From Lishizhenia tianjinensis (GTDB taxonomy: Bacteria > Bacteroidota > Bacteroidia > Flavobacteriales_D > Crocinitomicaceae), in assembly GCF_900116425.1 (NCBI RefSeq), contig NZ_FPAS01000002.1:452537-516536 (forward strand): a stretch of 64,000 nt of DNA, given 5' to 3'. Both the position numbers and the translations under genes were made by a program. Positions within the stretch are counted from its first letter, which is position 1. The number at the start of each line of letters is the position of its first letter. This document shows, piece after piece, positions 11,743-15,851 of the stretch. The notes below the pieces were generated by a model. It was not told the origin of the DNA. It ran no database searches and saw only the letters and a program-made list of their open reading frames with translations.

Positions 11743-12836
11743 GCTTTCAAATCCATCAATACTTGAACGATATCTTGTGTTGCGTTTGGTCGTGCCAACG
11801 CTTTTAAGTTTCCTTTTAATTTATTTTGGAAGGCTGGGTTGTTGAGTAGTTGTAAGCTCAAGGGTATCAATTCTTCAACGGCTGTGTTGTCTTTTACCAA
11901 TAATGCAGCACCTTCATTTACCAAAGAATTTGCATTGTGGGTTTGGTGGTCTTCTGCCACATTAGGAGAAGGTACCAAGATGCTAGGTTTACCAACCAGA
12001 GCTATTTCCGAAACCGACAAGGCACCTGCGCGAGAGATAATAACATCTGCTGCGGCATAGGCCAATTGCATTTCCGGTATAAAATCGGTTAAAACGATAT
12101 TGCTGTATTTGTTGGTGTCAACTTCTTTGCTTAGTCTTTCTTTGTAGAATTTACCACATTGCCAGATGACTTGTACATCGGCTTTGTGTAGGCTGTCTAA
12201 ATGTTTTTGAACACTATTGTTTAAGGTGAGTGCGCCTAAACTTCCGCCCAAAACTAATATCGTTTGTTTATCCGTAGAAAGGTTGAAGCTTTTCAAGGCG
12301 AGTTCTCTTTTACCTTCTATAGCTGCTACTTCAGTTCTTACTGGGTTACCCGTAAAAACGATTTTGTTAGCAGGGAAAAAGCGTTCTAACCCTTTGTGGG
12401 CAACGCATATTTTATTGACCTTCTTTGAAAGGTAGATGTTTGTTTTTCCAGGAAAAGAATTTTGCTCTTGTACAACACTTGGTACTCCCAAACGAGTTGC
12501 GGCAATCAAGGTTGGAGCAGATGCATAACCACCTACACCTACAACCACATCGGGTTTGAAATCTTTAATAATCTTTTTAGCCATGAAGTAAGACTTTAAA
12601 ATCTTAAAGGGCAAAGCAAGATTACTTAAGGTAAGTTTGCGCTGTAAACCACGAATGGGTAAACCAATGATTTTGTAACCGGCAGCTGGAACCTTTTCCA
12701 TTTCCATTTTGCCTTCGGCACCCACAAAGAGAATTTCTATGTTGGGGTTTTGTTCCTTTAAACCATTAGCGATGGCAACGGCAGGGAATATATGTCCACC
12801 CGTTCCTCCTCCTGATATAATTGCTTTTTGTATCAT
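11739..12836 (-). CDS. murG: UDP-GlcNAc:lipid I transferase MurG
   Basis: A GT28 glycosyltransferase of 365 residues that converts lipid I to lipid II on the inner face of the membrane. The N-terminal glycine loop SGGGTGGHIFPA is at residues 8-19, a second GVGGYAS loop near 100-106, and the donor-binding segment ISRAGALSVSEIA near 262-274. All three are diagnostic. It overlaps both ftsW and murC by four bases (ATGA junctions). Confidence 0.97.
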   Translation of the reverse strand: MIQKAIISGGGTGGHIFPAVAIANGLKEQNPNIEILFVGAEGKMEMEKVPAAGYKIIGLPIRGLQRKLTLSNLALPFKILKSYFMAKKIIKDFKPDVVVGVGGYASAPTLIAATRLGVPSVVQEQNSFPGKTNIYLSKKVNKICVAHKGLERFFPANKIVFTGNPVRTEVAAIEGKRELALKSFNLSTDKQTILVLGGSLGALTLNNSVQKHLDSLHKADVQVIWQCGKFYKERLSKEVDTNKYSNIVLTDFIPEMQLAYAAADVIISRAGALSVSEIALVGKPSILVPSPNVAEDHQTHNANSLVNEGAALLVKDNTAVEELIPLSLQLLNNPAFQNKLKGNLKALARPNATQDIVQVLMDLKA

Positions 12837-14014
12837 TCTGCTATGCTGTTTTTAAGTGTAGGAGAGGATACTACTTTTCCTTTGTTTTGTTGGTTGGCAA
12901 TAGATTGAACTATACCAACGGCAGCGCACGCTGTTACCATAGCAGAACCTCCCATGGCTAAAAAAGGAATGTTCTGTCCGGTAACAGGTATGATGCGCGT
13001 GCATACCAACATATTTATGGAAGCCTGTAACATTAACAAGGAACCAATTCCAATACACACATAGGTATGGAAGAGTTTATCGGCTTTGAGTCCAATTCTA
13101 AATATGCGGTACATCAAACTCATATAGAGTAAGATTAATATTACGGCCCCGAAAATTCCGAATTCTTCTACAAATGAAGAGAAGAAAAAATCGGCGTATG
13201 CTTCGGGTAAATATTCTTTGAGTCGACCTTTACCCACACCTTCTCCAAACAAACCACCAACGTGTATGGCAAGTTCGGCATTAATGGCCTGGGCATTTTC
13301 TATAATACTGGTTTCTTCTCCAAAAGCTTTGGTGTAACGAGATACCCAAGTGTCCAGTCGTGGAATTAATTCTATGTCTGGTTTGAGGGCAAAGTGCAGT
13401 AGTACGGCGATGGATACCAATCCTAAACCACCGGCGACTAGCACACCTATTCTCTTTAAAGGATACTTTCCTACAAATAACAAAAGGAAGGCAATCGTAG
13501 CCAATAATACGGCTGTTGAGAAGTTGTCTTTAAATATTAAACCACAGATTACTACTATGGCAGAAGCGATAGGTACGAAGCCTGTTTTCCAATCTAAAAA
13601 GTTGTCTTTCTTAACAGCAAGTTGCTTGGAGATGTAAAGTATTAAAGCCAATTTGGCAAAGTCTGAAGTTTGGAAAGTTAACCCTACTATAGGGATTTTT
13701 ATCCATCTACTTGCGTTGTTAATCGTTACCCCGAAAAAGAAGGTAAAGATGAGCAGGAAGACGGCCATGATGAGTCCGAACTTCGAAAGTTTAGAAAAAT
13801 ATTTAGGGTCTAAGCGATGTAAATAGTACATCACAGCAATACCTATCACGATATAAATAACGTGTTTAAAGAGGTATTTGAAGGGTGATCCTCCTTCTGT
13901 TTTTACCAAGATGGGAACAAAAGAGAATACACAAACCAAAGAGATGAGCATGAGCAAAAAGACGATAATCCATATCCCCTTGTCACCTCCTAAATATTTT
14001 AATACTGACTTCAA
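12833..14014 (-). CDS. ftsW: Septal peptidoglycan glycosyltransferase FtsW
   Basis: A SEDS-family polytopic membrane protein of 393 residues with about ten hydrophobic segments. It polymerises lipid II at the septum in partnership with FtsI. The large extracytoplasmic loop near residues 205-260 holds GVGKGRLKEYLPEAYADFFFS, in which the PEAYADFFFS stretch is the FtsW hallmark, and the C-terminal part has the conserved PVTGQNIPFLAMGG motif. It starts directly after the orphan MurD-like gene with no spacer and overlaps murG by four bases. Confidence 0.96.
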   Translation of the reverse strand: MKSVLKYLGGDKGIWIIVFLLMLISLVCVFSFVPILVKTEGGSPFKYLFKHVIYIVIGIAVMYYLHRLDPKYFSKLSKFGLIMAVFLLIFTFFFGVTINNASRWIKIPIVGLTFQTSDFAKLALILYISKQLAVKKDNFLDWKTGFVPIASAIVVICGLIFKDNFSTAVLLATIAFLLLFVGKYPLKRIGVLVAGGLGLVSIAVLLHFALKPDIELIPRLDTWVSRYTKAFGEETSIIENAQAINAELAIHVGGLFGEGVGKGRLKEYLPEAYADFFFSSFVEEFGIFGAVILILLYMSLMYRIFRIGLKADKLFHTYVCIGIGSLLMLQASINMLVCTRIIPVTGQNIPFLAMGGSAMVTACAAVGIVQSIANQQNKGKVVSSPTLKNSIAE

Positions 14015-14485
14015 TTATTGGTTGTCTTTTAAATAGTTCAAGAAAGTTGTTTCCATTTCCTTTGCCTGTTTCCCTAATCCAGGAGCAAAGAATACGGTAT
14101 TTCCTTCGTGGGCTACTTTAGTTAACATTTCACAAGCTTCTAAAATGTCGTTTTTACGTGTGAAGAAGGTAACTTGTGCTTCTAAATCGTATCTAAACTT
14201 TTTATTGGCTTGTCCGAAAGAAATAATCGCTTCTACCTCTTGGCTTAACCACGGTCTTTCTTCGTTAAAATCGTGTTCTAGATCACTACTCATGATCCAG
14301 ATTACAGGATTGTCTAATTGTTTTAAGGCTTCAAAACATTCATTTAAATTGGCACCCGACCAAGAGTATATTTTCATACCTCTAAAATCTTCGTGTTGTG
14401 TTAAATGCTTGTTAGCTTCCTTTAATGCGTTCTGACGTGCAGAAAGTAAACTATCCTGCAAGGTCTTTTTATCTAGTTTTTGCAT
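14015..14485 (-). CDS. Orphan protein resembling the MurD C-terminal domain, non-catalytic
   Basis: A 156-residue protein between murD and ftsW. From about residue 38 to 136 it can be laid over the third domain of the adjacent MurD. WSGANLNECFEAL aligns with MurD DSKATNVNSTWYAL, PVIWIMSS with PTVWIVGG, EVEAIISFG with KVKAIICLG, and NTVFFAPG with DEIVLLSP. The residues that matter for catalysis are lost: MurD Asp-Ser-Lys becomes Trp-Ser-Gly, and the SPACASFD loop becomes APGLGKQA. The ATP-binding central domain and the UDP-binding first domain are absent, and the first 37 residues form a predicted charged helix. It therefore looks like a duplicated, inactivated Mur-ligase domain kept as a scaffold or regulator; that role is inference. 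The frame is intact and abuts ftsW without a gap, which argues against a decaying pseudogene. Confidence 0.7.
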   Translation of the reverse strand: MQKLDKKTLQDSLLSARQNALKEANKHLTQHEDFRGMKIYSWSGANLNECFEALKQLDNPVIWIMSSDLEHDFNEERPWLSQEVEAIISFGQANKKFRYDLEAQVTFFTRKNDILEACEMLTKVAHEGNTVFFAPGLGKQAKEMETTFLNYLKDNQ

Positions 14486-14507
14486 GACGTTACGTTTTAA
14501 TGTGTTT

Positions 14508-15851
14508 TTATAATGCTCTCACGGCATCTTTAAATTGGTTACCTCTGTCTTCGTAGCTTTCGAATAAATCGAAACTTGCACAAGCTGGAGATAACAATAC
14601 GATTTCATCTTTCTTTGCTAATTGGTATCCAAAACCAACTGCTTCCATAGCAGATTTTGCTTCTACTATCGTTTCAATTTTTCCTTGGAAAGCCTCAATG
14701 ATTTTTGAGTTGTCAACTCCCAAGCAAATAATAGCTTTCACTTTGTCTTGAACAAGTTCTGCTAACTCTTCGTAGTTGTTTCCTTTGTCTACACCACCAA
14801 CGATCCAAACAGTTGGTTTTTCCATGCTTTCTAAGGCGTACCAAGTAGAGTTTACGTTGGTTGCTTTTGAGTCATTGATGAATTCAATACCGTGAACTTT
14901 GGCTACGAACTCCAAACGGTGTTCAACGTTTTTGAAATCAGATAAACTCTCTCTAATTGTTTCTTTTCTAATGTCGAGGATTCTTCCTGCGATCCCTGAG
15001 GCCAAGCTGTTTTGAGTATTGTGCTTGCCTTTCAATGCTAAATCGTGAATAGACATAGTGAATTGGTTTTTTATTGTTATTGTTATTTGTTGTTCGTTTG
15101 CGTGTGCTCCTTGCGTTTGTTCTTCTTTTAAAGAGAAAGGAGCGAGCTGAGCTTTGGTGTTTGTTAGTGCCAAGTGCTCAGTGATGATAGGATCATCTGC
15201 ATTGTAGATGAACCAATCGTTTGCTGTCATGTTTTGTAGAATTCTAAACTTCGATGCCGTGTAGTTTTCCATTTTGTAATCATACCTGTCTAAGTGATCT
15301 GGTGTGATATTTAATAGTATGGCAATGTCCGCTTTGAAGTCGTACATGTCATCCAATTGGAAACTGCTCAATTCTAACACGTAGTACTCGAATTCGTCAG
15401 CTATGACTTGTTTGGCCAAACTTTGACCGATGTTTCCAGCTAATCCTACATTAAGTCCTGCCTTTCTTAAAAGGTGATGCGTTAAAAGGGTAGTGGTAGT
15501 TTTTCCATTGCTACCGGTAATGCATATCATTTTTGCTTGTGTGTAATAACCTGCAAATTCAATTTCAGATATGATTTTAATTCCTTTTGCTACCGCCTTT
15601 TGAATGATAGGTGCTTTGTGTGGAATACCTGGAGATTTCACAATTACATCACTCGTTAAGATGATATCTTCTGAATGTTGTTCTTGCTCAAATTGTATGT
15701 TGTTGTTTGTTAGTTCTTGTTGGAATTTATCCTTGATTTTACCGAAATCTGAAACAAAAACATTCCACCCCTTAGCTTGTGCTAAAAGTGCAGCGCCCAC
15801 TCCGCTTTCGCCTGCGCCCAAAATGCTGATATGTTTGTTTGTTCCGTTCAC
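14508..15851 (-). CDS. murD: UDP-N-acetylmuramoyl-L-alanine--D-glutamate ligase MurD
   Basis: A full-length Mur ligase of 447 residues that adds D-Glu. The N-terminal loop ISILGAGESGVGAAL is near residues 8-22, the ATP loop GSNGKTTT at 113-120, the central-domain motif NITPDHLDRY near 181-190, and the C-terminal catalytic segment DSKATN at 327-332 followed by SPACASFDLFESYEDRG. All key residues are present, so this is the working enzyme and the neighbouring short gene is an extra domain copy. It starts three bases after the mraY stop. Confidence 0.97.
   Translation of the reverse strand: MNGTNKHISILGAGESGVGAALLAQAKGWNVFVSDFGKIKDKFQQELTNNNIQFEQEQHSEDIILTSDVIVKSPGIPHKAPIIQKAVAKGIKIISEIEFAGYYTQAKMICITGSNGKTTTTLLTHHLLRKAGLNVGLAGNIGQSLAKQVIADEFEYYVLELSSFQLDDMYDFKADIAILLNITPDHLDRYDYKMENYTASKFRILQNMTANDWFIYNADDPIITEHLALTNTKAQLAPFSLKEEQTQGAHANEQQITITIKNQFTMSIHDLALKGKHNTQNSLASGIAGRILDIRKETIRESLSDFKNVEHRLEFVAKVHGIEFINDSKATNVNSTWYALESMEKPTVWIVGGVDKGNNYEELAELVQDKVKAIICLGVDNSKIIEAFQGKIETIVEAKSAMEAVGFGYQLAKKDEIVLLSPACASFDLFESYEDRGNQFKDAVRAL

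Follow-up and report, generated by a model that had tools for sequence, protein, structure and literature searches.

A stand-alone degenerate MurD domain 3 encoded between murD and ftsW in Lishizhenia tianjinensis and its relatives in class Bacteroidia

In the dcw cluster of Lishizhenia tianjinensis, murD and ftsW, both of them essential for the cell wall, are separated by an open reading frame of 156 codons whose product resembles the last part of MurD. This arrangement raises the questions of (i) whether the short protein is indeed a homolog of a single MurD domain; (ii) whether it is peculiar to this organism or shared with other Bacteroidia; and (iii) what such a protein might do in a bacterium that also encodes a complete MurD.

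The window analyzed here is a stretch of 64,000 nucleotides of the L. tianjinensis genome (NZ_FPAS01000002.1, positions 452,537 to 516,536), and all coordinates below refer to it. On its minus strand, murD (14508..15851), which encodes a complete three-domain ligase of the family from which the duplication described below derives, and in which the NDSKATN, GGVDK, EHR, and SPACAS motifs are all intact, is followed by a 22 bp spacer (14486..14507), the stand-alone gene (14485..14015; 156 aa, ATG to TAA), and ftsW (12833..14014). The TAA codon of the stand-alone gene (14017–14015) is immediately followed by the TTG start codon of ftsW at 14014, and the short spacer between the murD stop and the start of the stand-alone frame is consistent with a single operon. 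These coordinates agree with the original prediction, made from the sequence of the window, that the frame is intact, lies between murD and ftsW, and adjoins the latter. Besides MurD itself, no further copies were found in the L. tianjinensis genome.

It had also been predicted that the protein can be aligned with the third domain of the adjacent MurD and that it lacks the ATP and UDP domains, and both statements were borne out. In a BLASTP comparison, the window protein matches residues 332–423 of the adjacent MurD (E = 3e-8, 23% over 92 aa), and it matches the NCBIfam model TIGR01087 (murD) at profile positions 331–418 of 441 (E = 6.4e-9), with a score of 35.4 bits that does not reach the model's cut-off of 211.95. 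As its 156 aa match the domain 3 region only, the protein has neither the P-loop central domain nor the UMA-binding N-domain that make up the rest of a three-domain MurD. Used as a single query, it obtained nothing useful from a PDB sequence search and no Pfam match at E ≤ 10, PF02875 (Mur_ligase_C) included. Profile searches (Z = 4000) gave 43.7 bits (E = 5.8e-12) against a MurD domain 3 profile and 65.0 bits (E = 1.4e-18) against a profile of similar lone proteins of other Bacteroidia, to which the window protein is closer; none of 1060 shuffled sequences reached E 1e-3 in such searches. Using hhalign, 22 Crocinitomicaceae homologs were matched to 21 MurD domain 3 sequences (probability 95, E = 2.4e-8), and the Crocinitomicaceae profile was matched to the stand-alone profile over 140 columns (E = 2.7e-13). 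We consider it close to certain that the window gene is a homolog of MurD domain 3.

The comparison of an AlphaFold model with MurD domain 3, proposed with the original prediction, revealed the same fold. In the model of the window protein (pLDDT 81, pTM 0.74), an N-terminal helix (approximately residues 6–25) matching the linker helix between MurD domains 2 and 3 precedes an alpha/beta fold like that of domain 3. Of the 29 best PDB matches to this model, nearly all are Mur ligases, aligned in their C-domains, and they span MurC, MurD, MurE, MurF, and Mpl alike, with a TMq of up to 0.59 for MurD. A less degenerate member was also modeled, and its structure superposes on domain 3 of Pseudomonas aeruginosa MurD with an rmsd of 1.6 Å over about 145 columns. 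The stand-alone protein has no apparent transmembrane segment. The window protein therefore shares with MurD the domain 3 fold, the linker helix, and residual sequence identity, but differs from it in lacking domains 1 and 2 and in having lost the catalytic residues. MurT, of MurT/GatD, is likewise a Mur-ligase-like subunit that has a partner, and its C-domain shows weak structural similarity to the window model (rank 18); however, the less degenerate stand-alone members resemble MurD more closely, and MurT keeps its central ATPase domain and is catalytic.

A frame of approximately 150 aa occupies the slot between murD and ftsW in most of the genomes read from the Crocinitomicaceae, a family that includes Fluviicola. 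Several Crocinitomicaceae genera (e.g., g2, g11, and g20) gave no match to the stand-alone gene, and at the loci read in genomes of this family without it, murD lies 11–88 bp from ftsW. A scan of genome contigs with a single sequence yielded no matches; an alignment-based scan succeeded. To describe the class as a whole, we used an even sample of 130 genomes, of which 125 could be scored for the murD–ftsW interval and five could not. The gap lengths fall into two peaks, with 84 genomes at or below 250 bp, 38 above 450 bp, and three intermediate. Frames of 119–214 aa are present in the gap in 40 of the 125 scorable genomes, representing 17 of 55 families (f43 among them being doubtful), and searches beyond the even sample added families f4, f5, f6, f9, and f63. 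The gene is absent from most genomes of the class and is therefore dispensable; where it is absent, murD is mostly next to ftsW. Even within the gene-bearing families f1 (Crocinitomicaceae), f16, f30, and f50, some members are without it; in one f50 genome (L195), an unrelated small frame fills the slot and no remnant of the stand-alone gene is present.

Outside the Crocinitomicaceae and the doubtful f43, the proteins encoded in the slot are plain MurD domain 3 proteins. Each of 25 stand-alone proteins from other families matches PF02875 (E ≤ 0.1), unlike the window protein, and each matches TIGR01087 as well; their profile aligns with MurD domain 3 from one end to the other (E = 2.8e-68). In its well-known members, PF02875 is part of a multi-domain ligase. 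By position and length (between murD and ftsW, about 120–215 aa), the window gene is a member of this family. Beyond the class, the genomes sampled from the phylum yielded essentially one match apiece, namely MurD, with two genomes showing two matches. In the samples taken, the stand-alone family appears to be restricted to class Bacteroidia. The named replicons of a plasmid collection contained full MurD only.

Several variants of the locus were observed. In f4, f5, and f6, which belong to the window's own order, two tandem stand-alone genes lie between murD and ftsW (L138–L141). Copies away from the dcw cluster were detected at L164 (G337:C59) and L167 (G333:C11), and G337 has one in the cluster too. 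In genus g40 of f9 (L144, G236:C44), the stand-alone gene still adjoins ftsW but is separated from murD by approximately 2 kb containing lipoprotein-like frames. At four f23 loci (L281, L287, L288, and L292), an extra frame of 71–92 aa, apparently encoding a single-span membrane protein, is located between the gene and ftsW. The frames of 119–123 aa in the gap of two f43 loci (L201 and L225) are weakly similar to the family (probability 81, E = 1.2e-5) and are possibly further reduced members of it.

In an unrooted tree of 53 stand-alone and 67 MurD domain 3 sequences, one branch separates the two kinds (98/86). When rooted with six outgroup MurDs, a tree that leaves out the long-branch Crocinitomicaceae rows, which fall on the stand-alone side of the unrooted tree (98/86), unites 34 stand-alone sequences in one clade (96/90) inside Bacteroidia MurD. 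Since the trees give a single stand-alone clade, we rejected several independent duplications as the source of the family. Some groupings recur in both the stand-alone and the MurD tree (f15/f55/f21 and f34/f63/f16), so descent looks mainly vertical. The trees point to one old partial duplication of the murD 3' end within class Bacteroidia, with repeated loss since. What had been described as a single gene thus appears to belong to a class-wide family of one origin, many members of which are less degenerate than the window protein.

The change of the DSK catalytic triplet to WSG in the window protein, noted in the original prediction, was confirmed in the alignment, where a one-residue gap stands just after it. 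At the positions of R302, D317, K319, K348, and S415 (E. coli numbering), the window protein has H, W, G, L, and A, and every substrate residue tested is lost. Crocinitomicaceae copies in general have lost nearly all of the tested residues, and a motif of this lineage, HGKxxGMDxFSW, stands where MurD has GIxFINDSK. Across the family, K348 is lost nearly everywhere and K319 often, while N, S, SP, and RG are kept in most families. Families such as f34, f63, f15, and f23, and part of f16, have unaltered EHR/AHR, NDSKAT, and SPA motifs; the K348 equivalent is retained in f23 and in one f37 sequence (L205), and the f23 copy lacks none of the tested catalytic residues. The D-Glu and ATP residues have been lost progressively in the stand-alone family.

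Nearly all of 145 neighboring MurDs have their domain 3 substrate residues unchanged. Four otherwise intact MurDs (L212, L220, L277, and L298) carry alanine at the S415 position, and there is one change of F to Y. We therefore rejected the idea that the stand-alone copy rescues a MurD with a broken domain 3.

Close stand-alone pairs, which exclude the window gene because the samples hold no other member of its genus, mostly have dN/dS values of 0.02–0.2 (Nei–Gojobori); one close pair, L007/L011, has a value of 0.72. Stand-alone dN is several-fold above that of MurD domain 3, and purifying selection is usually weaker than on domain 3. This relationship is reversed in f23, where the stand-alone copy is more conserved than domain 3 of its own MurD (99 versus 92%, 97 versus 84%, and 76 versus 54%), a pattern that would suit a surface to which several partners bind. 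Overall, the stand-alone gene appears to be under purifying selection. Absence from all close relatives, together with relaxed selection, had been named at the outset among the findings that would refute the prediction; instead, the gene is found in the dcw slot of relatives, and their close pairs bear the mark of purifying selection.

Ligase activity needs UMA-binding and ATP-binding domains and, because both are absent, the stand-alone protein is no ligase alone. We propose that it may serve MurD as a non-catalytic partner by way of the closing face of domain 3, a reading to which we assign a probability of roughly 0.4, and that it possibly links MurD to FtsW and MurG. One partial duplication of the murD 3' end appears to have produced the stand-alone domain, which has then been inherited between murD and ftsW; this domain would dock in trans on MurD via the face by which domain 3 closes over domains 1 and 2, and docking would tune MurD or place it beside the membrane enzymes encoded next. 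The Crocinitomicaceae copy, which has kept mainly the fold and the GMDxFSW motif, is as expected if a binding role alone remains. Retention in the slot under purifying selection while substrate residues vanish argues for such a role. It is through rotation of domain 3 that the MurD active site is closed (PMC4816537); a copy of this domain acting in trans could hence plausibly modulate the enzyme. A more far-reaching version, in which the lone domain of many Bacteroidia would bind MurD, control its open–closed cycle, and couple it to FtsW and MurG, is rather doubtful. Against a MurD partner are the absence of the gene from the majority of class genomes and from some members of gene-bearing families, and the copies outside the dcw cluster (L164 and L167), and the g40 arrangement, with the gene parted from murD but beside ftsW, fits a role on the FtsW side at least as well.

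A domain acting on the FtsW side might bind FtsW, MurG, or both, and possibly a Mur ligase as well, bringing precursor synthesis to the division machinery, with the MurD fold serving merely as a convenient recognition module. Such a membrane-side scaffold would agree with the stand-alone stop abutting or overlapping the ftsW start, with the gene directly preceding ftsW in g40 despite the approximately 2 kb that part it from murD, and with the small apparent membrane protein encoded before ftsW in f23. The protein itself, however, has no visible transmembrane segment, and its conserved residues, to judge from motif position, would be those of the MurD active-site face; we regard this reading as rather unlikely, although second only to a MurD partner. 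Binding data from Bordetella have led to the proposal of a scaffold of Mur ligases and MurG (PMC6420597). The Bordetella MurE–MurF fusion and MurG scaffold resemble the present case in concerning the physical organization of cytoplasmic Mur enzymes, but there full-length enzymes are fused (PMC6420597), whereas here a single dead domain is separate. Of the three roles suggested in the original prediction (MurD partner, scaffold, and decoy for the UDP-precursor), the decoy is unlikely, since MurD domain 1, the seat of UDP/UMA binding, is absent.

The EHR, DSK, T, and SP residues kept in some families, and the K348 equivalent of f23 and of L205 in f37, would suit a domain that binds D-Glu (or a nucleotide), signals the supply of substrate, and regulates either MurD or the synthesis of lipid II. 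A ligand sensor of this kind is improbable, since nearly every family is without K348, many are without K319, and the Crocinitomicaceae, including the window protein, have lost all of these residues. It is hardly probable, either, that the gene is a decaying relic of the partial murD duplication, open solely because translation of murD and ftsW is coupled through it. Fast, degenerate evolution in the Crocinitomicaceae, the several genera without the gene, the dN/dS of L007/L011, and a G101 copy called with an in-frame stop in the scan (the same region nevertheless reads as one open frame) would fit decay; yet dN/dS is far below 1 in nearly all pairs, the same slot is retained in 17 even-sample families (f43 doubtful) plus f4, f5, f6, f9, and f63, copies have been relocated and additionally duplicated, and genomes without the gene mostly have murD beside ftsW. 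Finally, intact copies such as that of f23, with every tested catalytic residue and a conservation exceeding that of its own MurD's domain 3, might act as domain 3 for domains 1 and 2 of another Mur ligase. This is very improbable, as the f23 MurD has an intact domain 3 as well, and it is inapplicable to the window protein.

No description of such a gene was found in the literature searched, which included few subscription journals and consisted mostly of titles and abstracts; in automated annotation, most members would probably be labeled as truncated MurD or as hypothetical proteins. The evidence points to an accessory protein of wall synthesis, so far unrecognized, rather than to a genetic leftover. 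The dcw cluster is among the best-studied bacterial gene clusters, and what looks like a dead piece of MurD, found across the class, sits in the middle of it. The Mur ligases are antibiotic targets and are regarded as self-sufficient enzymes. The family is a natural record of an enzyme domain that has shed its substrate residues and has nevertheless been retained, and the gene provides a direct handle on whether and how cytoplasmic Mur enzymes form complexes beside FtsW and MurG. If the stand-alone domain is indeed a partner of MurD, then MurD in many Bacteroidia would be a regulated hetero-complex with a dedicated non-catalytic subunit.
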